From a virus, in the IMG/VR virus record IMGVR_UViG_3300025168_000094, positions 1 to 59,020 of that record: a stretch of 59,020 nt of DNA; one strand, written 5' to 3'. The position numbers were made by a program, and so were the translations under genes. Below the pieces are notes generated by a model. It was given only the letters and a program-made list of their open reading frames with translations. It ran no database searches and was not told where the DNA came from. Each line of letters opens with the position of its first letter. Within the stretch, counting starts at the first letter, position 1. This document shows, piece after piece, positions 8,823 through 37,359 of this stretch.

Positions 8823-10583
8823 TCAACCGCCGCTCTCGCCGATAAGGCCACGAACAATAACAAGACCGTACATATCTGGACGGACCATTTTCTTGGCGTA
8901 ACGAGTCATCACGCCCTTACGAGGTACGAAGTCCTCTGGTCCAAAGATAGTTGGAGTTGTTTGCAGTGGCACGTATGGTGCGTACACGTATCCGCTTTCA
9001 AGGAAAGAGGAGCCGCGACGGCCAACGAGAATCACGTTACGCAAGAAGTATGGGTCAACGTAAACGTCGAACTTCTTAGTAAGCGCGCCGACCTTCTGAG
9101 CGCCGATGGAACCACGCTCATCGTCAGCAGTGACGGAAGCACGGAAACCAGCAGTGAACTCAAGGACGTTAGCAACTTCAGGTCCACAGACGATGAAGTT
9201 AGCGCCGCCACGAAGGGTCTTGCGGTGAATGTTAGCAGACACATCATTGATGGTCTCAACAAGAGTCTCATACCACTCGGAAACGGTACCGGTGAAGTCA
9301 GGGGCAGCCGAAGTTGCACCAATTTCAGCACCAGTGTTGCGGTTCACGAAGAGACCTGGGGAGCGAGACCAGTACTTAGTACCAGCGGTAGCGCCCTTAA
9401 CGAGATCTTCAAGGATCTCACGGTCGATCTCAAGAGCGATTTGCTCGGAGAGGATAGAAGTCAATTCGACTTCAGCATCCAAGTTGTGGTATGCGTTAAG
9501 GTCTTGACCTAACTCAGGAGTCCACTTAGCCTTAAGCTTCTTGGAAACAGCGGTAACAGCAATCGAGTCAACTTTAATGTCGATCTCGGGGATGTTGATG
9601 TTGTTTTCCAAGCCCCAGGGATCATCACCAATAACAGAACCAAGGGCTCCACCATTAATGAAGTCATCTTCTTGGGCGAAGGTAACTTTGTGACCTGCGG
9701 AAGCAGTAAGGATACCATGAAGTTGTGCTGCAGTAGCAGAACCATCATAAGAAGCAAGAACAAGCAAGCCTGTAGTCGTGCTAGAGCCACTGAAGCGGGT
9801 GAGACGACGAAGTTGGACACCGCGTTGACCTCCACCAGCGGAACTAGTAGTGTTAAGACCGGCGTTCGAGCCAGATGCATCTTGAAGAGTAACAGTGACG
9901 AAATCATCTTCGTTGAAGTTTGTCAAGCCAGACACTGTGAAAGAAGCGACGGCAACAGTTGCGCCGGCAGCACCTTCAAGTTCAGGGTCATGTTGACAAA
10001 GGTCAGGAAGAGCACCAGCAGAAGCACTGTATGTACTTGCTGTGATGAACGTCATAGCCAAAGCAGCGACGGATCCTGTTGGGGAAGCGTAACCGTTATT
10101 CAAGTTGCGAGGACCACGCTCAGCGTTGGCCTCAGAGATCAAGATACCACCAGTGATTTCGGACGCAACGCGACCACCACCGTAAACGGACTCTTCAGAG
10201 CCATCGGTACCGTAACCCAAGCGAGGGAGACCTGCACCGTTTGTAGAAACAGTGAAATCCATGAAGAAAATGAGGCCCGAGGGCAAACTCATAGGTTGCA
10301 CGGCGACGAGATCGTTGGCAATGAGGCCAGCGAAGACGCGACGTACAATGGGGAAAGCTACAGCAGCGAAGCCTTCAACATCGCCGCCAGCCATCGTGGA
10401 ACTTTCACGAAGAAGTTCCTTTGCTTGATTTTCAAGCAAGCGTGCCATGGTCTTGCGGCTGTTTTCGCCGGTAAGACCTTCAAGAAGACCGGTTTTCTCC
10501 CACTTAGAGAGAAGAGCACCACCTTCTGCACGCATATCTCTGTTGACCACACCTTCGGTCAATCTTTCGATAATACTAGACAT
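8823..10583 (-). CDS. gp23: Major capsid protein, gp23-like
   Basis: A 586-residue precursor of the shell protein. The N-terminal delta region (to about residue 60) ends in KELLRE, a site of the (I/L)xE type cut by gp21-family proteases. It is followed by the conserved AFPIVRRVFAGLIANDLVAVQPM block, diagnostic of gp23. Further family blocks include QIALEIDREILEDL, GGANFIVCGPEVANVLE and the C-terminal PYVPLQTTPTIFGPEDFVPRKG region. A Thr/Ser/Gly-rich insert in the middle makes it longer than T4 gp23 (521). A near-ideal AAAGGAGGTG site lies 8-10 bases before the ATG. It follows the scaffold gene by 38 bases and ends at a strong terminator. Codon use is strongly biased, as expected for the most abundant virion protein. 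Confidence 0.97.
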   Translation of the reverse strand: MSSIIERLTEGVVNRDMRAEGGALLSKWEKTGLLEGLTGENSRKTMARLLENQAKELLRESSTMAGGDVEGFAAVAFPIVRRVFAGLIANDLVAVQPMSLPSGLIFFMDFTVSTNGAGLPRLGYGTDGSEESVYGGGRVASEITGGILISEANAERGPRNLNNGYASPTGSVAALAMTFITASTYSASAGALPDLCQHDPELEGAAGATVAVASFTVSGLTNFNEDDFVTVTLQDASGSNAGLNTTSSAGGGQRGVQLRRLTRFSGSSTTTGLLVLASYDGSATAAQLHGILTASAGHKVTFAQEDDFINGGALGSVIGDDPWGLENNINIPEIDIKVDSIAVTAVSKKLKAKWTPELGQDLNAYHNLDAEVELTSILSEQIALEIDREILEDLVKGATAGTKYWSRSPGLFVNRNTGAEIGATSAAPDFTGTVSEWYETLVETINDVSANIHRKTLRGGANFIVCGPEVANVLEFTAGFRASVTADDERGSIGAQKVGALTKKFDVYVDPYFLRNVILVGRRGSSFLESGYVYAPYVPLQTTPTIFGPEDFVPRKGVMTRYAKKMVRPDMYGLVIVRGLIGESGG

Positions 10584-14898: not shown

Positions 14899-14931
14899 TT
14901 AGTGTTAGTCTCCGTTTGTATTAAATATTCT

Positions 14932-16065
14932 TTAGGAACCTTTAGTTCCAATAATCCACCAATTTTCTCCATCGCACTGTAAAGTTCGCGATGAGTAATT
15001 CATTTTTATTAACTCATTGTTGCCAATGTCAATCTTACCTTCTTTACAGCTTAATGTAATTTCATTATCATTTAGCTTGTATTGGTTAGAGTTAGCTTTT
15101 TTGAAAATCAATACCCTGCCTTGGTTGTTGACAGGTGGTGGGAGATTGACATTCATTTTATTGTTTGACGCATCACAAATAATTGTGTAATCATCATTTT
15201 GTACTTCGTAGTTTTCTTCTTTAACGGTTTTGATTTTTTTATAAACAGAGCCTTCACAGACTAATTTATTTTTAATCTGGGTGCTGGCGGCTGATATTCT
15301 ACCTTCAACGTTTAAAGAATTATTACTTGGATCGAAGCTAAGGGCAGCAGTTGATTCAAAACCACTTCTACCTTTTAATTGGATTTCGTTCTTATTACCA
15401 GATGCATGTGGTATCTTCATATTGATATAGCTATCAAATAAATTTCTGATTGTTGTGCTTCTGGTCTTGCCTAAAGAAGCATCACTAACAAGCAACAAAT
15501 CATCGTCGCTAAGGTTTTGGCCTGCAAGATTGATTTTTTCAACCTTAGCAATGTCAGTAGTCAGTTTGTTATCTTCAAAGTACAATCCAGAATTATTGGC
15601 TACTGTTACGCTCAAAGAATCTTCTTCCATGGATAGACCTTGGGATAATTTAACCTGCAGCTTTCCTCTTACGTTTTGCAATCCGGCGCCGTAATCAACA
15701 AAATTAGCATTGATTTTGCTTACAAATTTATCTGTAGGGAGGGTATGCAAATAAATTCCTGAACCTGCAATTGTACTGGCATTGATGTTTTTTACATCTA
15801 ACGTCTGAGAATCACTGTTATACGTTAAGTTGTGATGTGTGCGAGCACCGTGTTGTTTATCAGCAATAATAATACCATCATTGATGTTGCCTTTAATTTT
15901 CTTAATTGCTACATCTTTCATGGTAGCACATGGAGATTCTGCGTCTGTATCATAAAAGACACTGGCACTAATAGTATTTTTAAAAACTTTGATGCCGCCG
16001 ATCTCTTGATCTCCGTGTTGGTCCACGGAACCTTCTACTACACCCTTAAGTACATTATATGCCAT
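14932..16065 (-). CDS. Fibre-like virion protein with MAYN start
   Basis: A 377-residue protein starting MAYNVLKGVVEGS, related at its N-terminus to the neighbouring fibre-like proteins. The middle carries short beta-repeat motifs (LTYNSDSQTLDVKNINAS, LSFDPSNNSLNVEGRIS) found in phage fibres. The end (from about residue 280) is a small beta domain, with TIICDASNNKMNVNLPPP and a final ENWWIIGTKG. It is comparable with the C-terminal domains of the 16180, 17828 and 18826 genes. It is more Lys/Asn-rich than its neighbours. The start is the ATG at 16065, with GAGAGG 7 bases upstream; the longer frame from 16083 is not supported. An imperfect copy of the ACTATTTA element lies just upstream, after a terminator. 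Confidence 0.75.
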   Translation of the reverse strand: MAYNVLKGVVEGSVDQHGDQEIGGIKVFKNTISASVFYDTDAESPCATMKDVAIKKIKGNINDGIIIADKQHGARTHHNLTYNSDSQTLDVKNINASTIAGSGIYLHTLPTDKFVSKINANFVDYGAGLQNVRGKLQVKLSQGLSMEEDSLSVTVANNSGLYFEDNKLTTDIAKVEKINLAGQNLSDDDLLLVSDASLGKTRSTTIRNLFDSYINMKIPHASGNKNEIQLKGRSGFESTAALSFDPSNNSLNVEGRISAASTQIKNKLVCEGSVYKKIKTVKEENYEVQNDDYTIICDASNNKMNVNLPPPVNNQGRVLIFKKANSNQYKLNDNEITLSCKEGKIDIGNNELIKMNYSSRTLQCDGENWWIIGTKGS

Positions 16066-16083
16066 ATTATATCCTCTCAACAA

Positions 16084-16091
16084 TAAATAGA
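16084..16091 (-). promoter_or_regulatory. Imperfect ACTATTTA element (TCTATTTA)
   Basis: Coding strand TCTATTTA, 18 bases before the 14932-16065 start codon and just after a terminator. It differs from the other copies only in the first base. A second partial copy (GCTATTTA) lies about 18 bases further upstream at 16102-16109. Confidence 0.35.
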
Positions 16092-16114
16092 ATTATATTA
16101 CTAAATAGCCTCAT

Positions 16115-16146
16115 AAAAAAGGATGCCCCCACAAGGAGGGCACCCA
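16115..16146 (-). terminator. Rho-independent terminator after the 16180-17712 gene
   Basis: On the coding strand a GGGTGCCCTCC arm pairs with GGGGGCATCC, with G-T pairs and a short TTGT loop, followed directly by six T residues. It ends the transcript of the highly biased fibre-like gene. Confidence 0.88.
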
Positions 16147-16179
16147 AGACAATAGCCTAAGTCTAAAACTATGTTTAGA

Positions 16180-17712
16180 TTAGAAGATTCTCCATGCAGC
16201 ATCCGAGATAGCCATCAAGGAGACAGCACCGGAATCGGATTCGATTTCGATAGAAGCCACACCGTCAATGCTATCACCAGAGCCAGCAGCGATGATGAGC
16301 TTGTTGGAACCAACAAGCGGAGCTTTAACGTGTACGACATCGCCAGCAGCAGGAGCGGCTGGAAGAGTCCAGGTACGGTTAGCTGTGAGGTCTGCGGAGC
16401 CGTAGTTGAAGCCTTCGGCAAGAGTAGCGTCTGCATCACCGACTGCGGTGACGACAGCGCCGTCGAGCGAAAGAACACCACTAGCAAGTGTGAGACCAGC
16501 GCCTGCAACTGTAGACTTAAGACGAAGACCACCAGCAACAACTTCCATGGAAGCATCACCGTCGCCAGAGTTGAGTCTAAGGTCTGCAGAGAAAGCACCA
16601 CCTGCGAAGGACATATCCATCGAGTTAGTGTCAGATACGGACAATTGACCGCGAACACCAGCAGCAGCATCACCGTGAGCGATGGTGTCGAGTACAGAAC
16701 CCGAGAATTCGCTTTCGTCGATGCTAAACACACCAGAAGAGTAATCGATCATTGCTTCAGGGGCAACACTCAAGTGAGCGCGAACTTCAGCGGCCGAAGG
16801 ACCGGTGTAAGTAATAACACCCGAAGAGGCGTTGTAGGCCAAGGAGCCGTCACCACCAGCATCAGTCACAGAAATGTGGCTGCGAATACCGGCAGCAGCA
16901 TCAGCGTGAGCGATAACATCAAGTGCGGAACCAGAGAATTCAGTGTGCTTGATCTTGTAAACACCAGCAGAAACTTCAAGCATTTCGCCAGCGGTCATGT
17001 GAGCGCGGACTTCAGATGCCGAAGGACCGGTGTAGGTGAAAACACCTGTCGAAGAGTTGTAAGCAAAAGAGCCGTCACCACCAGCGTCTACAGCAGATAC
17101 TGCAGCACGAGCACGAGCGTCGGTGAAGTAAAGGTTTGTACCTTCAGCCAAGTCAGCAGTGTTTTTGGTTGCAAGAGCGTCAGCCCAAGAAGCAGAGTAC
17201 TCGGAAGCCTTGATCTTGTAGACACCAGCAGAAACTTCGAGCATTTCGCCAGCGGTCATGTGAGCGCGGACTTCAGAAGCAGAAGGGCCTGTGTAAGTAA
17301 GGACACCAGTTGAAGCGTTGTAAGCCATGGAGCCGTCACCGCCAGCATCAGTTACAGAAACCATGCCGCGAACGGAACTTGTCAAAAGATTCTCGTTCAT
17401 AGTCCAAGCACCAGTGCTAGAGTTGTAGTGCATGAAGCGATCTGCTTCCATAGAGATAGCAGCGCGAGCGCGAGTGTTGGTGAAGTAAAGGTTCGCAGAA
17501 CCTTCGCTAACATCATCAGTGTCAGCGAGTTCGAGAGATGTTGCAGGGTTTTGCAACTGGCCGTCGAGAGTCGAGGCCGAGAGGTTACGAGCAGCGTCGA
17601 TTACGACGGTGCTGCCGACTTTAAGTTTGCCGGCGGAAATGATGTCAATATCACCTTCTTGCTTGAGAGCACCAGAAAGGATAGCATCACCTAATTGAAA
17701 TTTGTAAGCCAT
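16180..17712 (-). CDS. Repetitive fibre-like virion protein, probably highly expressed
   Basis: A 510-residue protein starting MAYKFQLGDAILSG. It contains three or four copies of a module with DAGGDGSxAYNxSTGV, TYTGPSASEVRAHMT and EVSAGVYKI. It also has the NLYFT[ND][TA]RARAA motif common in phage tail fibres and appendages. The C-terminal domain (from about residue 440; TWTLPAAPAAGDVVHVKAP and SIDGVASIEIESDSGAVSLM, ending WRIF) matches the end of the 17828 and 18826 proteins. Third positions are strongly C/G-biased, like the capsid gene, suggesting abundant expression. It is flanked by a structured region upstream and a terminator downstream, so it may be a one-gene unit. TTTAGGAGA lies 8 bases before the ATG. 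Confidence 0.82.
   Translation of the reverse strand: MAYKFQLGDAILSGALKQEGDIDIISAGKLKVGSTVVIDAARNLSASTLDGQLQNPATSLELADTDDVSEGSANLYFTNTRARAAISMEADRFMHYNSSTGAWTMNENLLTSSVRGMVSVTDAGGDGSMAYNASTGVLTYTGPSASEVRAHMTAGEMLEVSAGVYKIKASEYSASWADALATKNTADLAEGTNLYFTDARARAAVSAVDAGGDGSFAYNSSTGVFTYTGPSASEVRAHMTAGEMLEVSAGVYKIKHTEFSGSALDVIAHADAAAGIRSHISVTDAGGDGSLAYNASSGVITYTGPSAAEVRAHLSVAPEAMIDYSSGVFSIDESEFSGSVLDTIAHGDAAAGVRGQLSVSDTNSMDMSFAGGAFSADLRLNSGDGDASMEVVAGGLRLKSTVAGAGLTLASGVLSLDGAVVTAVGDADATLAEGFNYGSADLTANRTWTLPAAPAAGDVVHVKAPLVGSNKLIIAAGSGDSIDGVASIEIESDSGAVSLMAISDAAWRIF
16948..17091 (-). repeat. Internal repeat, second copy (in 16180-17712 gene)
   Basis: About 144 bases closely matching 17209-17352, offset by 261 bases (87 codons), and encoding the VYKI-to-DAGGDGS module. 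A third, more diverged partial copy lies around 16770-16870. Confidence 0.8.
17209..17352 (-). repeat. Internal repeat, first copy (in 16180-17712 gene)
   Basis: Partner of 16948-17091. The central part is nearly identical at the base level, unlike the synonymously diverged repeats of the 11917-14898 gene. Confidence 0.8.
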
Positions 17713-17742
17713 TATATATTTCTCCTAAATTATGAATTATAT

Positions 17743-17809
17743 AAAAAATGCTAGACCAGTATGGACCCGAAGGCACAGACAAGCCCAGCATTCAAGTTTA
17801 ACTAGTCTA
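17743..17809 (-). other. Structured intergenic RNA with interleaved stems, possible terminator
   Basis: In transcript order: TAGACTAG (17802-17809), AATGCT (17787-17792), CTGGTCTA (17752-17759) and AGCATT (17747-17752), followed by T residues. The first pairs with the third (8 bp, one G-T) and the second with the fourth (6 bp), an a-b-a'-b' order that allows a pseudoknot. The final stem with its T run could act as a weak terminator. It fills the gap between two fibre-like genes. Confidence 0.5.
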
Positions 17810-17827
17810 TACTTGGGGTAAACAAAA

Positions 17828-18805
17828 CTAGCTAATAAAATATTTATTGGAGCCGTTGCAATAAATCGATATTGCTGCGTATGGGGACTCTAAAACTATT
17901 GAATTTTTACCATCGATAGTTTCTGATCCAGAGGCAAAAATAATCACGCTATTGTTGTTTGCGTTGCCGCCTTCATCTTTTACTACGATCGTTTGACCGG
18001 TCATTAACTGGGACGCACCAAGTAATCTGATATCTATTTGTGACTCAGTTGAGTCAACACCAATGTAGTAGTCGTCTAATGAGGCAGTAATAGTAGAAGT
18101 AGTTGTCCTGTGGTTTAAGGACAGACCACCATTGATGGAAAGGGTATTGTTTTGAAAAAGTAAATTACCGGATCCGGTAAGATCATTATCAGCAGAATCA
18201 TGAAATTGAACTGAATATACAGGTCCTTCCGCAACAACATTATCTGCTTTCACATTAATGAGATTGCTGCCATCACCATAGAAAGCAGAAGCAGAGATAT
18301 TCAAACTTGCCGATAAGGCGCCTGTAACAAACGTAGACTTGTTTAGTACGATTCCACCCGGTATAGAGCCGATACTGCAATCAGGACCAAGGTGTACTGA
18401 GCCAGTACCAACGAACAATGAACCCCATCTTTGTGTTGCAGAGCCTAAATTGAATACAGCACTGCCAGATGGAAATATCGAACCTGTAATTGTTAAGCCA
18501 GCGCTGCTAGAGATGTTTACTGGTCCAAGGAACGAGGCTCCGGCAGATGCTGTTATGTCTCCTGTTACATTTAAGGTATTACCATCAAACGTCAAGTTGC
18601 TTTCACAAACTAAGTTATTAGCATCTCCATTGACATTTGTAAGGATTGCATTGTTAGTAGCATTAGACACACGAGGTATATTAATCACATCGCCAGCATC
18701 AGACGTGCTTAAGTTGCCTGATAGAATATTGGCATACGCTATATCTATCCGAGGTCTAAGTTCTGCGGGCAAGAACACAGTGCCCGACATGTTGTTATAA
18801 GCCAT
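17828..18805 (-). CDS. Fibre-like virion protein with MAYN start
   Basis: A 325-residue protein starting MAYNNMSGTVFLPAEL. Its middle has NLTFDGNTLNVTGDITASAG and SASAFYGDGSNLINV, the same fibre-type repeats seen in the giant 11917-14898 protein. The C-terminal 80 residues (DDYYIGVDSTESQIDIRLL, then SETIDGKNSIVLESPYAAIS) form a compact beta domain. That domain is shared with the 16180 and 18826 proteins and ends in a NGSNKYF-type strand. It is therefore built as common N-terminal anchor, variable beta shaft and common C-terminal domain. GGAGG lies 7 bases before the ATG. Most likely a fibre, spike or head decoration component; the exact location cannot be told. Confidence 0.78.
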   Translation of the reverse strand: MAYNNMSGTVFLPAELRPRIDIAYANILSGNLSTSDAGDVINIPRVSNATNNAILTNVNGDANNLVCESNLTFDGNTLNVTGDITASAGASFLGPVNISSSAGLTITGSIFPSGSAVFNLGSATQRWGSLFVGTGSVHLGPDCSIGSIPGGIVLNKSTFVTGALSASLNISASAFYGDGSNLINVKADNVVAEGPVYSVQFHDSADNDLTGSGNLLFQNNTLSINGGLSLNHRTTTSTITASLDDYYIGVDSTESQIDIRLLGASQLMTGQTIVVKDEGGNANNNSVIIFASGSETIDGKNSIVLESPYAAISIYCNGSNKYFIS

Positions 18806-18825
18806 CTACATGCCTCCTCTATTAA

Positions 18826-19527
18826 CTAGAAGACAAACCAGTTGCTTCCATTCGAATATAAACTAATTGCTGGCATTGTACCAGTCAAGGTATAAAACGC
18901 ATCGCCATCGAATGTATATGTATCGGTAACTGATCTAGTAAGAACGATACTTGAACCTCCTCTAAGAGAGGCTTCATCTTTAACCACCAGCACGGCGCCG
19001 GCACTATATGTGCTAGGATTCGGTATAGTTATTCTAACAGGCGCTGTACCGCCCGTAAAGGGGGTTGCAACGCCGAGAAGGTAGTCAGAGGTTGACGCGG
19101 TATAGTGACTGCTCGTAACGTTGGTGTAGCCCCCTCCAAAGCCCTTAACGAAGGTTTGCTTTGAATAGGAGCTAGCGCTCAATATTGCGGTTGTTCCCGA
19201 CCAAATTGCCAAACTACCTGTTCTGAAATGCCTGTCGTCAATGGTGTTACCAAAGAATGTCGAACCGGTTGCATCAATAATAGAGATGTTCTCGTAATTG
19301 AAAACACTGGCACTCAGAGTACCAGTGACAATCATATTACCAGATAACACCAATGTGGAGGGCTCAGTGTGCTCTCCATAAGAGGCTGTGTAATATACTA
19401 ATTTAGATGACCCTGTGGTATGACCCCCCGATCCAGTCATAAACTGGAGGGAGCCAGTTGGTCCTGAAGCAGCACCATCACCGACAGTATCAGTGCAATC
19501 AACATAAGCCCAGCCAAAACTCGACAT
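18826..19527 (-). CDS. Fibre-like virion protein with shared C-terminal beta domain
   Basis: A 233-residue Ser/Thr/Gly-rich protein without the MAY start of its neighbours; it begins MSSFGWAYVDCTDT. It contains VLSGNMIVTGTLSASVFNYE, the fibre-type strand pattern. Its last 80 residues (DYLLGVATPFTGGTAPVRI, then TDTYTFDGDAFYTL, ending AISLYSNGSNWFVF) match the C-terminal domain of the 17828 protein. It follows the 19532 gene by 4 bases and probably belongs to the same transcript, which starts near the ACTATTTA element at 20005. Likely a structural partner of the other fibre-like proteins; no specific receptor-binding motif can be recognised. Confidence 0.75.
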   Translation of the reverse strand: MSSFGWAYVDCTDTVGDGAASGPTGSLQFMTGSGGHTTGSSKLVYYTASYGEHTEPSTLVLSGNMIVTGTLSASVFNYENISIIDATGSTFFGNTIDDRHFRTGSLAIWSGTTAILSASSYSKQTFVKGFGGGYTNVTSSHYTASTSDYLLGVATPFTGGTAPVRITIPNPSTYSAGAVLVVKDEASLRGGSSIVLTRSVTDTYTFDGDAFYTLTGTMPAISLYSNGSNWFVF

Positions 19528-19531
19528 TAGT

Positions 19532-19972
19532 TTAGCCTACCCCTGCAGAACCCGACCAGTTTGTGCCTTGAGCCGTAGCTGTGAGACCAGTTCGGATGTT
19601 AGTGAGGCCAGCAACAATGTCTACGTTTGACGAGCCTGATACCCAGATAGATGATACTTTTAATTGTAAAACTCCACTGTTTGCAACGTTGGATGTATCA
19701 CCGTGTGCGGTAGTAACCGATCCACTTAAAGATGGAATGGTAAAATAGTTACTAGAACCAGTCATCCCACTAAGCGAAAACGCTACTTTGCAATCACGTC
19801 CAATATCATTGTTAATAATTTTAACCCAACTCGTAACATGTGGAAACACAACTTCATAACCGCCGGGGCGGCTGCCAACGAATCCATCGATATTACCACT
19901 GGCAAATGGTTTCCCACTTACTTGGTAGGCGCCTACATGATTTAGGCCGGGTTCGGTATTCCAACTTCCCAT
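19532..19972 (-). CDS. Small virion protein, unknown
   Basis: A 146-residue protein I cannot assign. It starts MGSWNTEPGLNHVGAYQVSG and has a beta-rich, Ser/Thr/Gly-heavy composition (VVFPHVTSWVKIINND, AFSLSGMTGSSNYFTIP, VLQLKVSSIWVSGSSNVDIV). The arrangement of strands resembles small head-decoration or fibre-base proteins that often precede fibre genes in marine T4-like phages. AAGGAG lies 7 bases before the ATG, and the ACTATTTA element lies 32 bases upstream. It is thus the first gene of the fibre block transcribed toward 17828. Confidence 0.68.
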   Translation of the reverse strand: MGSWNTEPGLNHVGAYQVSGKPFASGNIDGFVGSRPGGYEVVFPHVTSWVKIINNDIGRDCKVAFSLSGMTGSSNYFTIPSLSGSVTTAHGDTSNVANSGVLQLKVSSIWVSGSSNVDIVAGLTNIRTGLTATAQGTNWSGSAGVG

Positions 19973-20014: not shown

Positions 20015-20257
20015 TTAATTTTTTCTAGCGCGTCTTTGTTGTGCTTTAAGTTTTTTAGCTTGTTCGCGAAGGCGAGTGCGCTCGGCTCTTTCCTTTTTTA
20101 TACGTTTCTTGACTGAGGGCTTATTATAGTGTTTTCTGTCCCTGCATTCTTCTACGATTCTTTCTTTCTTGACTTTTTTAAGAAACTTTCTTATTAGTCT
20201 CTCATTACTCTCTTTAGGGTGGTTACGCTTAGTAATCACTTGTGCTTGTTTTTTCAT
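20015..20257 (-). CDS. rpsU: Ribosomal protein bS21 homologue
   Basis: An 80-residue, strongly basic protein. The core RLIRKFLKKVKKERIVEECR, then HYNKPSVKKRIKKE, follows the bacterial bS21 pattern: an R-x-F-K-K helix, an acidic-basic helix, a Y-x-K-P-S turn and a basic C-terminal helix. It is slightly longer than host bS21 (about 70 residues), with an extended basic tail. bS21 sits at the anti-Shine-Dalgarno end of the 30S subunit and exchanges readily, and viral copies are known from marine and huge phages. They are thought to bias host ribosomes toward phage mRNAs. It lies 3 bases after the 20261 gene, sharing its AGGA as a ribosome-binding site, within the capsid-protease group, which suggests late expression. 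Function in this phage is inferred. Confidence 0.88.
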   Translation of the reverse strand: MKKQAQVITKRNHPKESNERLIRKFLKKVKKERIVEECRDRKHYNKPSVKKRIKKERAERTRLREQAKKLKAQQRRARKN

Positions 20258-25570: not shown

Positions 25571-27154
25571 TCACTTTATAATCCACTTATATTGGTCATA
25601 AGTGTTTTTAGCTTCTTTCATTTTATCAAAAGTATCGCTTTTTTTGTATCCTATTTGACCTTTTATTTGTGTATTCATGGTAGTTTTAGAAGTTATGATG
25701 GCATCTACGAAGGCACGTTGGTAGTTTAGTTCCCTTGCGCTGCTCTGTATAGCCGTGTCTCTAACCCAACAAGCGATTGCAAGAGCCATGATTAAGTCAT
25801 CATGATATCCTTTCATTGCTTGTGGCCTGCCATTCCTCCAAATAAAGGTTTTCATCTCGTTGATTGTGCGAGAAGAATATATCGTAATTAGTTTATTTCT
25901 GATAAACTCTTCTAATTTCGCGACTATAAGAGGTCGCGTCTTTGACGAAGTGGTAAATCCAGGTACGGCAGAGTTTCTAATCTCTGCTTGATATTGTTCT
26001 ATGTATTCGTGCGTTGACTTTATGGAATGATATAGATTAGGATATGCTGCCTCAATTAGTTTGTCTAATACAGAGTACCCAACATTGTTATTTTCCACAA
26101 CAAGCATAGCATTCCCGTATTCTCTGCCGACTTGGTTTAACATATTAGCATACATATCAAGTGTTGGCTTACCCTGATACTCTCCTACAATCTGCAAGGT
26201 TTCTAGCTTAATCATATGAAATGTGGAATAATCAGCACCATCTCCCCTGGCTACATCGGCCACCATGAGATAATTGCACGTAGGATCAAACTCTTCCCAG
26301 ATCCAAAAATTTCTATCAAAACCAGTTCTGTGTTTTGGTTCACATATATTAGACATCAACCACTCCATACACTGTGAATCTATCACAGTCTCTCCGGAAG
26401 TATTGAAATTGCATTCCAGCTCCTGAGCGATTTGTCTCTTTGACATGTTTCTGGTTTCTTTCTTATACCACTCTGAATCACGATCTGGGTGTACGTCCCA
26501 GGGCAGCGTCGTCAGGTGAAAGTTGTTTGCCTCGGCCTCAGCGTCGACGCATGCTTTATGAAACCAGTTACCCACACCGTTTGGGGTGGATAGTGCAATG
26601 CAACGACCACCAGTTGACAGCGTAGGATACAGACCAGTCCACAGTTCCTCTAGACCTTCAATGTGGGCGGCCTCGTCAAGCACAAGCAGCGACAGGGCTT
26701 CTGAACGACCAGCATCACCAGATGTTGAAGTAGCTTTGATAGAGGAGCCGTTTGATAACTCAAAGGACGTGCGGTTATCTACCGAGATAGTCGCTATGCG
26801 GATCCACTCTGGTAAATTCTTCATGATGCTTTTGACTTTTTTGACTAAGTTACCAGCAGTAGCAAACTTGGTTGCCATAACAAGAATTGACTTATCCTTG
26901 TGAAATAACATCAACCAAGAGATATAGCCGGCTGTAATCGTTGAGATTCCCAACTGTCTTGCTTTGAGAATTACATTAAATCGATAATCGTTAAAATCGT
27001 TTAACAAAACATCTTGGAAGTCGTATGTGTCAAAAAGGATTAGCCCGTGCATCGGGTGAGATATACGGGCATAGTTTTTAAGAAAGTAAGTCGGGTCTTT
27101 ACCGCACTTTAATATTTCTTGGAACTTTTGTTTTTTGGTAAGTTCAAAACTCAT
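25571..27154 (-). CDS. gp17: Large terminase subunit (packaging ATPase-nuclease), gp17-like
   Basis: A 527-residue motor protein that pumps and cuts DNA at the portal. The ATPase part shows a Walker A variant ARQLGIST (residues 65-72), Walker B SLLVLDEAAH (156-164) with the catalytic Glu, and the coupling motif ALSTPNG (187-193). The RNase H-like nuclease part shows VADVARGDGADYS with Asp 300, VVENNNVG with Glu 354, and GYHDDLIMALA with Asp 452/453. It is somewhat shorter than T4 gp17 (610). It overlaps the preceding gene by 4 bases and lies directly before the portal gene. No recognisable small terminase gene lies in the window. Confidence 0.97.
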   Translation of the reverse strand: MSFELTKKQKFQEILKCGKDPTYFLKNYARISHPMHGLILFDTYDFQDVLLNDFNDYRFNVILKARQLGISTITAGYISWLMLFHKDKSILVMATKFATAGNLVKKVKSIMKNLPEWIRIATISVDNRTSFELSNGSSIKATSTSGDAGRSEALSLLVLDEAAHIEGLEELWTGLYPTLSTGGRCIALSTPNGVGNWFHKACVDAEAEANNFHLTTLPWDVHPDRDSEWYKKETRNMSKRQIAQELECNFNTSGETVIDSQCMEWLMSNICEPKHRTGFDRNFWIWEEFDPTCNYLMVADVARGDGADYSTFHMIKLETLQIVGEYQGKPTLDMYANMLNQVGREYGNAMLVVENNNVGYSVLDKLIEAAYPNLYHSIKSTHEYIEQYQAEIRNSAVPGFTTSSKTRPLIVAKLEEFIRNKLITIYSSRTINEMKTFIWRNGRPQAMKGYHDDLIMALAIACWVRDTAIQSSARELNYQRAFVDAIITSKTTMNTQIKGQIGYKKSDTFDKMKEAKNTYDQYKWIIK

Positions 27155-31218: not shown

Positions 31219-32091
31219 CTATGCTTTCTCTTTTGCAATTTTTGTGGCAGTTGCGTACATTACGGATTCAGCGTCATCGCCGTACCTTTTCTTGAAGTCT
31301 TTCTTGTTCGTCTTCATACCTTTGACAACTTTTTCTTTTTCTTTCTTCTCGGGCTTGGTAAGTTCTTTTTCACGAAGTCGACCCTTAGGGCGGCCGCGGC
31401 CTTGGCGGCTATTGTAGCCAGCGTCAAGAGCATCCGAAAGAGAGTAAATTTTAAACTTCTCCTCGCCGTATTCAACAGCGCGTCTGAGATTTGCAGCGAA
31501 CTTCTCTAATGGTATTGAGATTCGCGCCTTTTCATGAAATTGTTTAATTTGTTCGTCGGAACGTGTATTAAGAAAACCGCCAATTGCCTCCCAAGCTTCT
31601 TTTGTCTCGTCGCCGCCGAGAACATTACGAGGACCGGTGACACGGGCAGCCATGTCTTTTACTTTTCCCATTGGGCGATCAAATATACCTTCTTCCATTT
31701 GTTCTTGATCTTCAGGCTCTTTAGGCATAAACTTATCTTTCATCGCCTTGACGGCTCCAAGGAGTCCGCCAGTACCCAAAGTTGATACGATAGCAGGATC
31801 AGTTGCGAAGTGCTCTAATGCCTTAAAGAGAGCCATAAGGTTTTCGGGATTAATGTTTTCGACACCTTCTTTCATCTTGCCCTTAGTGGGCTTGGCAAGA
31901 CGACCCGAAGTTGCTTGTGAGTATCCGATTGAATAAGGATCTTGGTCTGTTACAGCGCCGGCAAGATAGTCAATACTGACATCTAAATCCTCTATCTTAT
32001 CAGAAAGCGCGAAGATTGCGTCAATCAAGGCTTCATTAGAACCTATTTCTTCTTTGATAATTTCTTTAAGTTTAGACTTGCTGATTTTCAT
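31219..32091 (-). CDS. MKI-tagged protein with AT-hook-like motif and YATATK C-terminus
   Basis: A 290-residue protein starting MKISKSKLKEIIKEEIGSNE, a near-consensus tag. A segment around GIFDRPMGKVKDMA and EEKFKIYSLSDALDAGYN is helical. It is followed by RQGRGRPKGRLRE, an AT-hook-like DNA-binding motif. The end is KKDFKKRYGDDAESVMYATA, then TKIAKEKA. I recognise this C-terminal F-K-x-R-Y-G-x-x-x-x-x-V-M-Y-A-T-A motif from several marine phage virion proteins. Tag plus DNA-binding motif would suit a protein packaged with DNA inside the head. The start at 32091 is chosen because the tag begins there; a frame to 32172 is open but overlaps the preceding gene. Confidence 0.75.
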   Translation of the reverse strand: MKISKSKLKEIIKEEIGSNEALIDAIFALSDKIEDLDVSIDYLAGAVTDQDPYSIGYSQATSGRLAKPTKGKMKEGVENINPENLMALFKALEHFATDPAIVSTLGTGGLLGAVKAMKDKFMPKEPEDQEQMEEGIFDRPMGKVKDMAARVTGPRNVLGGDETKEAWEAIGGFLNTRSDEQIKQFHEKARISIPLEKFAANLRRAVEYGEEKFKIYSLSDALDAGYNSRQGRGRPKGRLREKELTKPEKKEKEKVVKGMKTNKKDFKKRYGDDAESVMYATATKIAKEKA

Positions 32092-32093
32092 TT

Positions 32094-32474
32094 TTAGCGG
32101 CCCTTCTGCTGTGGGATCAACCCTGCGTCCTGCATAGCAGCCGCGTTGCCTGTATTTTTGCGATACATACACTTAACAAAATCAGCATTCAAATCTCCAC
32201 GAAGCGCTTCGTCAGAGCAAGCCTTGATCTGTTGTTGGGACTCTTTCGGATCCTTATTGAATGGCGCTGAGGTCATAACGCTGTAAAGTTCTTGATACTT
32301 TTCAGGCACCCCGCCGCTATCCGGAGTCATTCGGCCCATAACATCTGATGTGCTTGGTACATTATCGGGCATATTGGTAGTGAAACTACCTTGCTCTTCA
32401 ATCTCATCTCTATATGTTGTCTCATTCAAAAAGTAACGAGGGTCAATTCTCTTCTTGTTTTTTCTTATAGCCAT
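32094..32474 (-). CDS. Small protein with RKNKKRIDPRYFL start, unknown
   Basis: A 126-residue hydrophilic protein starting MAIRKNKKRIDPRYFLNETT. The K-K-R-I-D-P-R-Y-F-L-x-E-T pattern recurs, from memory, at the start of other marine phage proteins and may be a second N-terminal address or interaction motif. The remainder (SVMTSAPFNKDPKESQQQ, then FVKCMYRKNTGNAAAMQDAG) is helical and polar with two cysteines. TAGGAG lies 7 bases before the ATG. It lies between the FtsZ-like gene and the tagged 31219 gene. Function unknown. Confidence 0.7.
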   Translation of the reverse strand: MAIRKNKKRIDPRYFLNETTYRDEIEEQGSFTTNMPDNVPSTSDVMGRMTPDSGGVPEKYQELYSVMTSAPFNKDPKESQQQIKACSDEALRGDLNADFVKCMYRKNTGNAAAMQDAGLIPQQKGR

Positions 32475-32487
32475 TATAAATCTCCTA

Positions 32488-33627
32488 TTATGTTGCTAAT
32501 CCATTCATGCTTAGTATCGCAATCAATCCGGGCACATTCTTTCTGACATAAACGCCAGAGAAAAGTGTCTCGCATCGGCCGCCGACATAAGCGATTGCCG
32601 ACTCAATATTTTTACTGACTTTGGGGTCAGCCACCATCTCTTCTGACACAACCAGCACTAACGAGCCTGCAGCGGCCTTACCCTTGGGAGGGGGGCACGC
32701 TGAGCGGTTCATACAATTGTGGAGGATCACCGATCCAAGCTTTCCAGTATTTGGGTCTTTAATCATCGTGGAACCCATGAAGGCACGGCCGGTCTTATCT
32801 AGACAGGTTTCGAGGTCTTTTGAATCAAAAGATTGAATTGGTGAATCTTCCGTAGAAAGTTTAAGCACTTGAGCGAAAGATTTTGCAAATTGTGTATTGG
32901 CTACTGGATACATGCCAAGCATACCAATTCTGCCACGCAGTAAGCGTGTAGCTCGTTCATTGTCAAGAATGATATGCGGGTGCTTAGCAACGTCGTTAGC
33001 CAGTGTCAAGGCATTACGAGCGATTGTGGGGTTAAGATTTTCCTGTGCTGTGGGCCAAGATGTTACATAAACAACCTTACCGCTAGCTTGAACTGAGCGA
33101 AGGTAACGTTCAAATACAGGATGAAGAGCAGTGACGCTACTACCGGTGCCACCGCCGCCGCCAGCAAGGACGAATAACCAATCAACTTTACCAAATTTGA
33201 TGCGGAGAGCATCTTCAACAATTGCGCCATTTTGACTTAAAACCTCTTTTCCATATTCTACGTTTTTTCCAATCCCATCTGAATCGGGAATGAGGACAAC
33301 GTGATCCTCGTCTACATTCTTTGGAATGTCTTTACCTGTTGAATTTACGAGTAGCGTCTTATTGAAACCTAATTCAATAAACGCATTCGCCATTTTATTG
33401 CCTCCACCGCCGACACCGACAAAACCAACATTGATAGATGAGGGGGCTGTATTCTCGGGGAGTAAATCTTCATCAGAGTATTCCATCTGTAATCCGAAGT
33501 CCTCAACCATGCCGAAATCTTCTGCATCTACTTCTTCGTGGTAATGATCTTTTTCCTGCGCGAACGCAGGAGGTGGTTCTGCGGGAGGCAGAAAATCAAA
33601 TTCGCTGTTATCGTTTTCGTCTGACAT
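32488..33627 (-). CDS. FtsZ/tubulin-like GTPase
   Basis: A 379-residue member of the tubulin/FtsZ superfamily. A 64-residue acidic, Pro-rich extension comes first. Then follow the T1 glycine loop GVGGGGNKM (71-79), the tubulin signature AGGGGGTGSS (155-164), and the T7 region SFDSKDLETCLDKTGRAFMG (266-285). The last part lines up with FtsZ N-x-D-x-x-D followed by GxAxMGS: both aspartates are kept and the Asn is replaced by Ser. It should bind GTP and form filaments. It looks closer to FtsZ than to the PhuZ tubulins of nucleus-forming phages. No C-terminal FtsA/ZipA-binding peptide is evident. Possible roles are positioning of phage DNA or replication sites, or interference with host division; neither is shown. 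It sits among tagged small genes. Confidence 0.9.
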   Translation of the reverse strand: MSDENDNSEFDFLPPAEPPPAFAQEKDHYHEEVDAEDFGMVEDFGLQMEYSDEDLLPENTAPSSINVGFVGVGGGGNKMANAFIELGFNKTLLVNSTGKDIPKNVDEDHVVLIPDSDGIGKNVEYGKEVLSQNGAIVEDALRIKFGKVDWLFVLAGGGGGTGSSVTALHPVFERYLRSVQASGKVVYVTSWPTAQENLNPTIARNALTLANDVAKHPHIILDNERATRLLRGRIGMLGMYPVANTQFAKSFAQVLKLSTEDSPIQSFDSKDLETCLDKTGRAFMGSTMIKDPNTGKLGSVILHNCMNRSACPPPKGKAAAGSLVLVVSEEMVADPKVSKNIESAIAYVGGRCETLFSGVYVRKNVPGLIAILSMNGLAT

Positions 33628-33638
33628 TGTTTATTCCT

Positions 33639-34055
33639 TTAATTCGGCACCACGGCGATGCCATATTTGTTACCTTGAATTGTCTTAAAATGAACTTCAA
33701 CCATACCTTCGGAATGGGTGAAATAATCCATTATAAAGATCCCGTCCTCTTTCCCTTCTGGTGGTGGCTCATTTTTATATGACATGCGCGCAAACCATTT
33801 ATACTGATTGTCATCTGTGGTGTCGAGAACGATATATTTATCACCCACCAATTGCCTCAGTGCATCATAAGCTTTTTCAGATGGTATTCCCCTCTGTTTA
33901 CGGTTCGCGACGGTCAGTTTGTTACCACGAATTTCGTGGTCGCGAGGAGTCATTGGGAATTGTATATTCTCATTCTCATTCAAGGGAGAAGAATTAAATA
34001 CAGATTCGATCTCTTCTTTGATAATCTGTTTGAGTTGTAATTTTGTAATTTTCAT
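33639..34055 (-). CDS. MKI-tagged small protein, unknown
   Basis: A 138-residue protein starting MKITKLQLKQIIKEEIESVF, essentially the tag consensus. The C-terminal 100 residues form a compact domain with strands KYIVLDTTDDNQYKWFARM, DGIFIMDYFTH and VEVHFKTIQGNKYGIAVV. It is preceded by a positively charged linker (RGNKLTVANRKQRGIPSEKA). Such a small alpha-beta domain attached to a helical tag may be a cargo domain. Its start overlaps the end of the Mre11-Rad50 fusion by 1 base. The FtsZ-like gene follows after 11 bases. No enzyme motif recognised. Confidence 0.74.
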   Translation of the reverse strand: MKITKLQLKQIIKEEIESVFNSSPLNENENIQFPMTPRDHEIRGNKLTVANRKQRGIPSEKAYDALRQLVGDKYIVLDTTDDNQYKWFARMSYKNEPPPEGKEDGIFIMDYFTHSEGMVEVHFKTIQGNKYGIAVVPN

Positions 34056-37000
34056 TATTGGTTTACCTTTGCAAATCCTGCTTTCTTATCAATTACGATT
34101 TGCATGTCAACACAATCTTTGAGCGAATCAAGGTGGGAGATCAACAAAACGTTCTTAAAATACACTTTAATTAGTTCCAAGATCTGAATAAAACCCGACA
34201 TATTGTCTTCGTCCAATGCAGTTCCAGGTTCATCAAGAATGAATAAGTCTGATTTTGGCAATGACGAAACTCCCAACAATGCTAGACGGATAGCCATTGC
34301 AGACAGTGACTTTTCGGCACCAGAAGCCATTTCAATTGGGCGCTCTTCGTACTTTGGATGTTTAATATTAATATCAAATTTATTGCCTGATGCTTCAAAG
34401 AAAACTTCGAAGTCAACAATGTTAGCAAGCACCTTGGCAATCTCTTCATTAATGACTGGAATCTTCTTCTTGATTACGTCATAGGCAATACCATTTGGAT
34501 GCATGCAACGCATAAACAAGTCATATGCAGCAAACTCAGTTTGTAAGTCTCTATACTCTTGCTTTTGTTCTTTGATTGTCTCAATCTTTTGTTCGTATGA
34601 GCCAACAGACTTAACAAGCTCTAGTGTTGCAGTATCACAATTGGTAATCTTACTTTCGGTTTGTTGAATCTTATAATGACACTTATTAAGCTGTGTTACA
34701 AGAAGCTCAAGGTTTTCAATTGCTTCCTTGTTTTCTTCGTATTCGTCGCGCTTAGCACACAAGTCAGACAGTTCTGATTGCACTGAGTGCAGTGTGTTCT
34801 TGTTTCTTTCTATTTCTAGATTGAGGTCAGCGATTTCTGAAGACACAGTGTGTTTATTGGATTCCATCTTTCCGTAGCGTTCAAGTTGAATCTCTACATC
34901 AAGCGGGTTAAGATCATTGATTATCTCAGTAATAATGCTTATGTTCTCTAATACTTCTACCTGTTGAGATTCAATGGCGCTTTTTTGAGACACGGCTGTA
35001 TGTGCTTCTTTGACGAACTCATTTTCACAACAGTATTGGCAATCAGGGTCGTATTGATGACCGTCAAGCAACTTCTCTTTCTTCAGCACTTCATTGTGGT
35101 TTTCGAGAAGTTTGTTAAGTTCTTCTTCTTGTAGTGATAACTTGCTTCTGTTTTGCTGAATCTGGTTCTGCAGACCCTCAAACTTTTGTAAGTCAAACTC
35201 ACCTAAGAAATTAGTAATCTTTTTATACACACCTTGCTTGAGTTTTAAATCATCTTCGTTCCTGCTGTTCTTTAGATTCAAGGCAGTAATTTTATTCTCT
35301 TCTGCTCGAATGCTACTGTTGATTGTGGAGATATCGATTATCTCAGCGGGGATTGAATCAATCTTGCTTTCGATTTCGTCTTTAACTTCCACCAAGCCTG
35401 CGTGTGCTTCTCGTAAAACAGTGCAAGTATTCTTGTGTTCCGCCATTTGTGTCTTTGATTCTTCGAGAGAAGTTGTAGCTTTCTCCAAATCTTCATCGTA
35501 ATTTTTAGAATCAAGCCGCTTTAGAGCACCTTTAAGGTCCACTGAATTCTCTTTAGCTAATTTAAACTTACGATCAAACAACTCAAGGTCTAAGAATTTT
35601 GCAATGATTTCTTTGCGACGTGTTGAACCTTCATCAATGAACGCAAGGGCGCCATGCTGTGATGACAGTGAAGAAACAGCAAAATCATCAAGGGTGCCAA
35701 ACTTCTTTCGAATGTTAGCGTCTGTTAGAGTTCTTGTAAGACCATTCAATGAAGTTGTTTCATCCATAACTGGATCATACACTTCAAAATTAAGTTCTGT
35801 TTTAGCCTCGTTTGTTTCCTCACCTTTTAGTCTTTTGACATACTTCTTTGCTGCTCTCTCGACTGTATACGTCAAGTCATCGATTTGAATTGTTACTTTG
35901 CCGCGGCATTCATTCTTGTTCTGATTGATGACATTAATATTCTTTCTTTCATTTTTAGAAGTTGTGTTAAACAGCGTCCATAGAATGCCATCAACGATAC
36001 TACTTTTACCAGAAAAGTTTTTACCAAAGATACCAATAATACCGCTTAGCTCGTTAAAGTTAACGTCGTTGTCTTCGCCGTAATTAAAGAGATTATCAAA
36101 TTCAAAGTCAATCAGTCTCCAGTTAATGTTTCTAGATACGTCTTCATTATCTTCTACAATCTGGTTATACTTCTTATTTAACTCGTAAACCTTTTCAATT
36201 GTTTCTCGGGAAGCTTCATAATCTACCAAGTATTCATCGATAAGTTCTTCTTGAACTTTGATGTCTCTCAGGTTTTCAGTCTGCAGACCATCGGTAAGAC
36301 CATCAACTGAGCCACGTTCGCCGGAGGCTCTGTTAAGGAACGATATACTCTCGGGCTTGAACCGGTGCTTGGCGATGTCTACCGCCCTCTTCATTGTATC
36401 TAACGGAAGATTATTATTACTAACGAGACGCACACGAGCGCCAGTCGGAATAGAAATATTCTTTGGCATTCGTCCTTTGCGAGTAAGCTCAATAGTAATG
36501 AACGGCTTCGGGTTAACAAGCGATACATGGCGTGTACTCCAGTTATACTTATCTTCAATATCCCAAATAAGATAACCTTTATCGTTCGATTCGCCATGGT
36601 TCTGTTGTACTAGGGAGCCGGGGTATCTCGCTCTACCATCTTTATCTACCTTTTGATCTGTCTTGTGAATGTCACCGAGTAATGCGTAGTCGTACTTCTC
36701 AAGCTCGTCAAGAGAGATATCACCGTGCGTCATCATCCAGCCGCTATCAGTCACCGAACCGACAACTGAGCCATGGTATAGGGCGACGTTAACACGATCT
36801 TCTGGAAGTTCTTTCTTCCAGTTCTCTGGGTCTACAATGGATAAGACATGCAAATCGATGCCATCTGCCACTTCTACTACTGATGCATGTTTATGAAAGT
36901 GAATGTTTGGATGGTTGAGATAATCAACAATGGGCGAAATAGCATCGAGTCTACCACTATTCTTTAAATTCATATCATGATTACCCAGAATCATGTGATA

Positions 37001-37219
37001 TGGTGCGATGTCTGCTAGACCAACAAACAATTCACTCATCATCTTGATTGCCTCGGGGCTTAAATCAAGTTTGGTGTGAAACGTATCACCGGTGTTAACG
37101 ATAATATCGGGCTTCTCTTCTCGAAGCTTCTCGTATAGTTGCTCGAAAACTGCTCGATATTCTTTATGGTACTTCAATTTTCGGACATGGATGTCCGATA
37201 CGTGTGCTATTTTAATCAC
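34055..37219 (-). CDS. Fused Mre11-Rad50 (SbcD-SbcC, gp47-gp46) nuclease-ATPase
   Basis: A 1054-residue single chain combining two proteins that are normally separate. Residues 1-250 are Mre11/gp47: AHVSDIH (Asp 9, His 11), NTGDTF, LGNHD (80-82), ALYHGS and LLGDIHK give the phosphoesterase metal site. From about 370 comes Rad50/gp46: Walker A FGKNFSGKSS (398-407), a long coiled coil with the zinc hook CQYC (727-730), signature MASGAEKSLS (965-974) and Walker B LFILDEPGTALDE (about 992-1004). The complex resects DNA ends for recombination-dependent replication and host DNA breakdown. The start is a GTG at 37219 with AAGGAG 5 bases before it. An ATP/DNA-end-processing fusion is unusual. Confidence 0.95.
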   Translation of the reverse strand: MIKIAHVSDIHVRKLKYHKEYRAVFEQLYEKLREEKPDIIVNTGDTFHTKLDLSPEAIKMMSELFVGLADIAPYHMILGNHDMNLKNSGRLDAISPIVDYLNHPNIHFHKHASVVEVADGIDLHVLSIVDPENWKKELPEDRVNVALYHGSVVGSVTDSGWMMTHGDISLDELEKYDYALLGDIHKTDQKVDKDGRARYPGSLVQQNHGESNDKGYLIWDIEDKYNWSTRHVSLVNPKPFITIELTRKGRMPKNISIPTGARVRLVSNNNLPLDTMKRAVDIAKHRFKPESISFLNRASGERGSVDGLTDGLQTENLRDIKVQEELIDEYLVDYEASRETIEKVYELNKKYNQIVEDNEDVSRNINWRLIDFEFDNLFNYGEDNDVNFNELSGIIGIFGKNFSGKSSIVDGILWTLFNTTSKNERKNINVINQNKNECRGKVTIQIDDLTYTVERAAKKYVKRLKGEETNEAKTELNFEVYDPVMDETTSLNGLTRTLTDANIRKKFGTLDDFAVSSLSSQHGALAFIDEGSTRRKEIIAKFLDLELFDRKFKLAKENSVDLKGALKRLDSKNYDEDLEKATTSLEESKTQMAEHKNTCTVLREAHAGLVEVKDEIESKIDSIPAEIIDISTINSSIRAEENKITALNLKNSRNEDDLKLKQGVYKKITNFLGEFDLQKFEGLQNQIQQNRSKLSLQEEELNKLLENHNEVLKKEKLLDGHQYDPDCQYCCENEFVKEAHTAVSQKSAIESQQVEVLENISIITEIINDLNPLDVEIQLERYGKMESNKHTVSSEIADLNLEIERNKNTLHSVQSELSDLCAKRDEYEENKEAIENLELLVTQLNKCHYKIQQTESKITNCDTATLELVKSVGSYEQKIETIKEQKQEYRDLQTEFAAYDLFMRCMHPNGIAYDVIKKKIPVINEEIAKVLANIVDFEVFFEASGNKFDINIKHPKYEERPIEMASGAEKSLSAMAIRLALLGVSSLPKSDLFILDEPGTALDEDNMSGFIQILELIKVYFKNVLLISHLDSLKDCVDMQIVIDKKAGFAKVNQ

Positions 37220-37230
37220 ACATTCTCCTT

Positions 37231-37359
37231 TTAGTTGATGTAAGGCACACCCAAACAAGCGTGTAACATTATTGGTACAACAAAAAGTCCAAAACAGTAA
37301 CCAACTTCGAAGATAATAACTTTAAGAATAACGTTTAAAGCTATAGCGAATGTCTTCAT
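37231..37359 (-). CDS. 42-residue membrane peptide
   Basis: A short frame between the promoter at 37378-37406 and the nuclease fusion gene. It encodes MKTFAIALNVILKVIIFEVG, then YCFGLFVVPIMLHACLGVPY and two final residues. It is almost wholly hydrophobic, with one long or two short membrane segments and two cysteines. GAGG lies 6 bases before the ATG, and its stop codon immediately precedes the AAGGAG site of the next gene, an arrangement expected of a real coupled gene. It would be the first gene of the transcript. Role unknown; short membrane peptides near early-gene promoters can act on host membrane proteins. It may have been overlooked because of its size. Confidence 0.6.
   Translation of the reverse strand: MKTFAIALNVILKVIIFEVGYCFGLFVVPIMLHACLGVPYIN

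Follow-up and report, generated by a model that had tools for sequence, protein, structure and literature searches.

A tubulin/FtsZ-like protein family of T4-like phages, apart from PhuZ and TubZ, with a possible role in organising late infection

To our knowledge, phage tubulins have been studied almost only as PhuZ, from the nucleus-forming jumbo phages, and as TubZ partition systems, such as the one that Clostridium phage c-st employs for genome partition. In tubulin/FtsZ polymers, the T7 loop touches solely the nucleotide of the next subunit and is without function in a single one. In phage tubulins, the T7 aspartate is catalytic and completes the active site of the neighbouring subunit, and the PhuZ filament also makes use of a helix, H11, and an acidic knuckle, both at the C terminus of the protein (PMC3678025). 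PhuZ of nucleus-forming phages places the phage DNA and gathers and moves proheads (PMC4244570, PMC13282480). A review mentions two distinct FtsZ/tubulin representatives among jumbo phages (PMC7824862). An FtsZ-like gene is already annotated in Bacillus phage G, and entries from uncultured phages are named FtsZ in the viral structure library. An earlier sequence-only reading of the locus treated here had called an FtsZ-type protein in a T4-like phage unexpected, naming PhuZ of nucleus-forming jumbo phages and TubZ of plasmid-like phages as the known cases; FtsZ-like proteins other than these two had already been recorded, as the bare annotations just mentioned. In the open full-text literature, to which most subscription papers and preprints do not belong, we found no account of tubulins as a family of T4-like phages. 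What is new here is a further, well-populated phage tubulin family, in a different type of phage and with a different putative docking tail.

The window, i.e., the whole stretch of DNA analysed, is the 59,020-nt IMG/VR virus record IMGVR_UViG_3300025168_000094. The tubulin/FtsZ-like gene (32488..33627, minus strand) lies among consecutive genes of like orientation and is recognised by its intact ORF, its family matches, the AlphaFold2 fold of its product and 145 distinct homologues. The ORF runs from an ATG at 33627 to its own stop at 32488, contains no internal stops and encodes 379 aa. Its product matches the NCBIfam ftsZ model with an E value of 1.2e-11, although the score of 44.6 bits lies below the TIGR00065 equivalog cut-off of 295.2, and matches Pfam Tubulin with an E value of 1.6e-7 (PF00091, 32.2 bits in one test and 33.2 in a second, for a gathering score of 33). 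The best match in the PDB is Staphylococcus aureus FtsZ (E 1e-9), in an alignment that spans T1 through T7. Judged by these profile and sequence searches, the family match far exceeds chance. The motifs quoted in the sequence-only reading were all located, namely GVGGGGNKM at residues 71–79, AGGGGGTGSS at 155–164, SFDSKD at 266–271 and GRAFMGS at 280–286.

An AlphaFold2 monomer model, for which 39 related phage sequences from the window and from fetched loci were aligned as input, has pLDDT values mostly of 90–96 across residues 63–379 and a pTM of 0.81. This model gives a tubulin fold over those residues, the outcome on which the earlier proposal had been staked, and we consider the predicted fold near certain. 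Foldseek places FtsZ first (E 3e-19), followed by CetZ of M. thermophila (E 4e-19), and VIA-align returns Z scores of 31.9 for Bacillus cereus TubZ, 31.7 for Haloferax volcanii CetZ2, 28.6 for FtsZ and 28.5 for c-st TubZ; overall, the comparisons with TubZ, CetZ and FtsZ yield Z scores of 26–32 at 16–23% identity, and the lead of TubZ over CetZ (31.9 vs 31.7) is within noise. On these comparisons of the model, membership of the tubulin/FtsZ superfamily is all but certain; the glycine-rich signature GGGTG(S/T) and the T7 catalytic aspartates are both present in the phage protein. No known sub-family stands out structurally, TubZ, CetZ and FtsZ being about equally close to the predicted structure. 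The claim of an FtsZ-type GTPase thus holds for the wider FtsZ/tubulin type, whereas the protein is not clearly of the FtsZ type itself, because the three groups are equally near and the ftsZ equivalog cut-off is missed widely.

In a phylogenetic tree, the phage family forms a clade of its own (support 90/99), separate from an FtsZ clade that unites E. coli, Bacteroidota and one Peregrinibacterium (99/96), and the FtsZ-like proteins of phage G form another (100/99). Long branches separate these groups, and that of phiKZ PhuZ, which stands by itself, is too long for placement. The phylogeny that had been proposed against FtsZ, CetZ, TubZ and PhuZ is answered in part: its rows, which are without TubZ and CetZ, put the family outside bacterial FtsZ, and the length of the PhuZ branch leaves that comparison without a position.

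Conservation within the family is concentrated in the catalytic loops. In the 39-row alignment, which reaches down to 47% identity, the T1 loop region (codons 69–80; 33388..33423, minus strand), which aligns with T1 of FtsZ, is the lowest-entropy of 305 twelve-residue core windows. The tubulin signature, or T4 (codons 154–165; 33133..33168, minus strand; LAGGGGGTGSSV), aligns with the GGGTG of FtsZ and is among the most conserved windows, and the T7 catalytic loop (codons 262–273; 32809..32844, minus strand; SPIQSFDSKDLE) ranks fourth. The glycines of T1, the stretch GGGTGS and, within T7, Q265, D268, D271 and L272 are invariant in all 39 rows, so that the retention of both T7 aspartates, noticed earlier in the single sequence, extends to the family. 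Moreover, dN/dS is 0.027–0.066 in closer pairs with unsaturated dS and 0.10 in one distant pair, values that are approximate because dS is 1.35–2.9, and these ratios point to strong purifying selection on the gene. As T7 acts on the next subunit, its conservation implies that assembly-coupled GTP hydrolysis was probably selected, and constitutes what we regard as the best sequence evidence of head-to-tail assembly with GTP hydrolysis. The formation of GTP-dependent filaments with T7-driven hydrolysis is accordingly graded as probable. A role without filaments, in which the protein would be a GTPase acting alone or in small oligomers, or would be associated with the virion, is unlikely: one sub-group does encode the gene between the major head protein and the neck proteins, as a virion component might be, but T7 is conserved though it has no known function in a monomer of the tubulin fold, and the window's clade has the gene outside the structural block.

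The phage protein differs from host FtsZ at both ends. The chain ends two residues past the last strand of the modelled fold, and the same or a few extra residues are found across the family, which bears out the earlier remark that a host-like C-terminal peptide is absent. At the other end, the N-terminal extension (codons 1–64; 33436..33627, minus strand) contains 20 acidic residues and one basic residue, and is predicted to be mostly disordered, with pLDDT below 50 for residues 1–7 and 16–49. The acidic 64-residue extension of the sequence-only reading is therefore confirmed; acidity alone does not describe it, since it also carries a conserved short motif, DFGMVEDF (codons 37–44; 33496..33519, minus strand), whose family form is DF(D/G)(F/M)(V/I)xx(Y/F). 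The extension otherwise varies among relatives both in sequence and in length, from 30 to about 148 aa. Most relatives have (D/E)DF(D/G)(F/M)(V/I/A)xx(Y/F) followed by LxxN, at a near-constant distance from the core; D37 and F38 are invariant in 39 of 39 aligned relatives, as are L56 and N59 in the same alignment, and E replaces D in the motif of a more distant homologue at locus L543. Docking peptides usually take this form, a conserved short motif within a disordered tail that otherwise varies; that of FtsZ is C-terminal. The tail motif is thus a putative attachment device, N-terminal rather than C-terminal.

The setting of the gene is T4-like, as had been supposed. Homologues of gp17, gp20, gp21, gp23 and gp18, i.e., the large terminase, portal, prohead protease, major head protein and tail sheath, are found in the window with PHROG matches at E 5e-51 to 4e-70, and the head-tail adaptor also matches a T4-type PHROG, several of the T4-type matches being at E 1e-50 or better. 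These include the gp17-like large terminase (25571..27154, minus strand; PHROG terminase, E 5.5e-51) and the gp23-like major head protein (8823..10583, minus strand; PHROG major head protein, E 7.6e-70). No cultured member of the phage group was found; in head protein and terminase, it comes closest to the isolated phages immuto, Mel-JY01 and RM378, at about 38–48% identity. Among the head genes lies an 80-aa gene resembling ribosomal protein S21 (bS21; 20015–20257, minus strand); within the genome collection, it is matched most closely by a phage contig that had been binned with a Flavobacteriaceae MAG. The bS21-like gene and this MAG point weakly to Flavobacteriia as host, in agreement with the nearest isolate, which infects Flavobacterium. 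The source samples are probably marine. T4 late promoters (TATAAATA) occur four times in the window, compared with 2.8 expected by chance, and none lies near the tubulin/FtsZ-like gene.

The family is well represented in viral metagenomes. Searching IMG/VR with the protein first returned 156 relatives, the best 80 of which are 88–99% identical to the query; a scan with the T1-loop motif added diverged members, and 145 distinct homologues are now recognised, at 47–99% identity if the phage G pair is set aside. A later search of whole records yielded two further homologues, at 51 and 58% identity. Loci fetched through the terminase provide an unbiased test of distribution, because they were obtained independently of the tubulin/FtsZ-like gene: it is present in all 15 such loci of the window's clade for which 6.8 kb or more of upstream sequence was available, so the gene is fixed, or nearly so, in this clade. 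Beyond the clade, in more distant T4-like phages, the gene is patchy and its position varies. Among gp23 loci retrieved with the head proteins from two of the diverged members, and counted if at least 3 kb downstream was available, it occurs in the 6-kb flanks of 9 of 109 (8/49 and 1/60), and it is present elsewhere in the record for 2 of 16 longer contigs from the gp23 searches, which may themselves be incomplete. The gene is therefore inessential to T4-like assembly in general. The same counts (at or near 8/49 and 1/60 related gp23 loci) led to the rejection of a universal adjacency to gp23.

Outside these metagenomic phages, relatives are scarce. Among isolated phages the sole relative is that of phage G (E 6e-4), and the family profile gave no match in Flavobacterium phage immuto, Microcystis phage Mel-JY01 or Rhodothermus phage RM378, although it is insensitive to very distant members, as phage G is also missed by it. 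No family member was found in the plasmids searched or in a DNA-pattern search of cellular genomes. One of 397 Flavobacteriaceae genomes matched, MAG NAT231, through a 1.9-kb contig whose product is 96.5% identical to the window protein, and none of 287 genomes of a second phylum did, so that the 684 bacterial genomes hold no match other than phage contigs in one MAG. Since another NAT231 contig bears head genes of the same kind of phage, phage DNA was evidently binned with the bacterium; at least two contigs of the phage group (L350, L356) are present in this Flavobacteriaceae MAG, whose assembly thus contains viral DNA. The patchiness outside the window's clade is what might be expected if the gene were an unimportant capture from a host, or a copy in decay. 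Against such an origin stand the dN/dS of 0.027–0.066, the spread of 47–99% identity within phages, the separation of the clade from bacterial FtsZ and the lack of matches in the 684 bacterial genomes apart from the MAG phage contigs, and this explanation, which we consider highly improbable, was rejected on the selection and distribution data. These data equally tell against the recently acquired host FtsZ with pseudogene features that the sequence-only reading had named as its refutation: on the sequences at hand, the family is old, abundant and strongly conserved in T4-like phages.

In the window, the tubulin/FtsZ-like gene is followed downstream by genes of 126 aa (32094..32474, minus strand; no Pfam or PHROG match) and 290 aa (31219..32091, minus strand; a weak match to phrog_12788; starting MKISKSKLKEIIKEEI), and preceded by a gene of 138 aa (33639..34055, minus strand; no Pfam or PHROG match; starting MKITKLQLKQIIKEEI), which is not kept beside it in other clades. 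Further upstream lies a Mre11/Rad50-like, i.e., gp47-gp46-like, gene (34055..37258, minus strand; PHROG SbcC E 1.6e-54, SbcD E 1.8e-35), which is found near the tubulin/FtsZ-like gene in the window's clade. This ORF of 1067 aa matches an SbcD-like PHROG over residues 15–389 and an SbcC-like PHROG over residues 349–1066, its relatives open with the Mre11-type motif HVADIHW...GGD, and it has the look of a gp47-gp46 (Mre11-Rad50) fusion. The 138-aa and 290-aa neighbours have near-identical starts (MKITKLQLKQIIKEEI and MKISKSKLKEIIKEEI; 34055–34002 vs 32091–32038, 74% over 58 nt), and similar amphipathic starts (MKLTRKQL, MKIDRKTL, MQITIKRLKEIIKEE) are found on many small genes of related contigs; these may be capsid-targeting leaders.

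In the window's clade, the tubulin/FtsZ-like gene adjoins the gp46/47-like gene, upstream of the terminase and outside the structural block. In another sub-group (L334-L337, L339, L340, L342, L346), it adjoins and follows the gp23 homologue, within a block in which the order is gp23, the tubulin gene and then homologues of gp13 (head-tail adaptor), gp14, gp15 (these two gp14-like and gp15-like) and gp18 (sheath). In one of these loci, L335, two big genes that resemble each other and tail sheath genes (1076 aa and 982 aa or more; 13688–19904) lie adjacent downstream of the neck genes. In a third sub-group (L341, L343), the tubulin gene lies directly 3' of a gene weakly resembling a late sigma factor (in L341, 8653–9339, phrog_234 at a weak E of 1.5e-4), and in L333 it comes after a primase gene and a 685-aa gene. 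No partner or cargo gene conserved beside it in every clade was found. The gene relocates yet stays intact, and is therefore kept for its own sake. Operon position is a weak guide to function in phages; the position in the head-neck-tail block suggests that expression would be late in the gp23-adjacent sub-group.

Two further explanations have to be weighed against this background. Firstly, the protein could mimic FtsZ in a divergent form and co-assemble with the host Z-ring, cap it or poison it, so that septation is blocked and a larger cell is available to the phage. Phages frequently attack FtsZ, examples being Kil of lambda, Gp0.4 of T7 and Icd of P1 (PMC3961180, PMC4944311, PMC11897509). 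Host FtsZ was found in every Bacteroidota genome examined, and the phage protein is without the C-terminal peptide that would recruit division partners. However, its identity to FtsZ is about 16–20%, and none of the bacterial FtsZ proteins tested is more closely related to it; capping or poisoning requires no catalytic T7, yet T7 is among its best conserved parts; and the gene lies in the head-neck-tail block in one sub-group, whereas host take-over genes are usually early. We regard such a mimic as unlikely. Secondly, a TubZ-like partition motor segregating an episomal phage genome would accord with TubZ as the top structural match, by a lead that is within noise. It is considerably less probable still, because no TubR-like HTH protein is recognised by Pfam in the 126-, 138- and 290-aa neighbours, no tubC-type iteron array occurs in the window between 30500 and 34500, the genes scanned included no recognisable integrase or partition gene, and the modelled chain has no C-terminal helix or tail past its last strand.

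With a probability of about 0.5, we read the gene as defining a phage tubulin family, apart from PhuZ and TubZ, whose filaments organise late infection. In this proposal, GTP would be bound between T1 and T6, and the subunits would join head to tail into protofilaments, in which D268/D271 of one subunit would hydrolyse the GTP of the next and thereby drive filament turnover. The filaments would act mid or late in infection by a T4-like phage without a detectable nucleus protein and would organise the production of progeny, either positioning replicating DNA or clustering and moving proheads, while the acidic N-terminal tail with its DFDF-type motif would serve as the cargo tether. This reading is favoured because of the tubulin fold, the conservation of T1, T4 and T7, the dN/dS values, the clade-wide presence, the gene positions and the kept tail motif. 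Its functional part, that filaments place phage DNA or gather and move proheads late in infection with the N-terminal motif as tether, has roughly even odds. The private phage role suggested in the sequence-only reading is supported by these results, and gene position and T7 conservation favour the organisation of phage factories over the disturbance of division, the two roles offered there. That a common T4-like lineage builds a dynamic tubulin cytoskeleton without a nucleus, and attaches proheads or DNA to it through an N-terminal motif, is a more tentative proposition, possible rather than expected.

A widespread T4-like group with its own tubulin/FtsZ relative suggests a private cytoskeleton of the sort shown so far mainly for giant nucleus-forming phages. 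A tubulin family in the best understood type of phage, in members without a detectable shell, makes it testable whether tubulin is tied to the nucleus or is of wider use, and whether a nucleus-free phage needs filaments and what for. If such a nucleus-free cytoskeleton exists, phages in general would use tubulin to organise the cell interior, a strategy whose origin or spread would not have depended on nucleus formation.

Compared with the known systems, the protein resembles PhuZ in being a phage-encoded member of the tubulin superfamily with T1, signature and T7, and in being a likely polymerising GTPase of lytic growth. However, it is very distant from the PhuZ of Chimalliviridae (phiKZ gp39, 201phi2-1 gp59), with a Foldseek E value of 3e-11 to the Noxifer PhuZ model; H11 and the knuckle are absent, the phage family ending at the last strand and having its acidic tail at the N terminus; and PhuZ phages are phiKZ-like, whereas the present family sits with T4-like virion genes. 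A search for the shell protein chimallin with phiKZ gp54 gave no matches at E 0.1 in eight contigs of 131–206 kb, in a comparison in which phiKZ itself was matched and which a very divergent shell would escape, and a nucleus-forming phage was rejected as a reading on this empty search of the eight contigs. TubZ of Bacillus plasmids and of Clostridium phage c-st shares the fold (Z 31.9 for the B. cereus protein, 28.5 for that of c-st), but at 16–19% identity and with a C-terminal helix and tail that are absent here. Bacterial FtsZ provides the best sequence matches, a similar core length and a T7 with both aspartates; it differs in its C-terminal linker and FtsA/ZipA-binding peptide, which the phage protein is without, and in forming a separate clade. 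CetZ of archaea likewise shares the fold (Z 31.7 to H. volcanii CetZ2), at about 20% identity, whereas the present protein is the product of a T4-like phage gene with a motif-bearing N-terminal tail. The remaining phage FtsZ-like proteins, phage G gp138, A0A6J5RW92 and A0A8S5UFG9, are, like the present family, neither PhuZ nor TubZ. Of the viral structures compared, that of A0A6J5RW92 matches best (E 7e-20), with 17% identity across the fold; phage G gp138 is 23% identical, has a T1 of GEGGSN, is without the N-terminal tail and has a long C-terminal tail. With the present family, the history of FtsZ and tubulin gains a branch in which attachment is putatively N-terminal rather than C-terminal.
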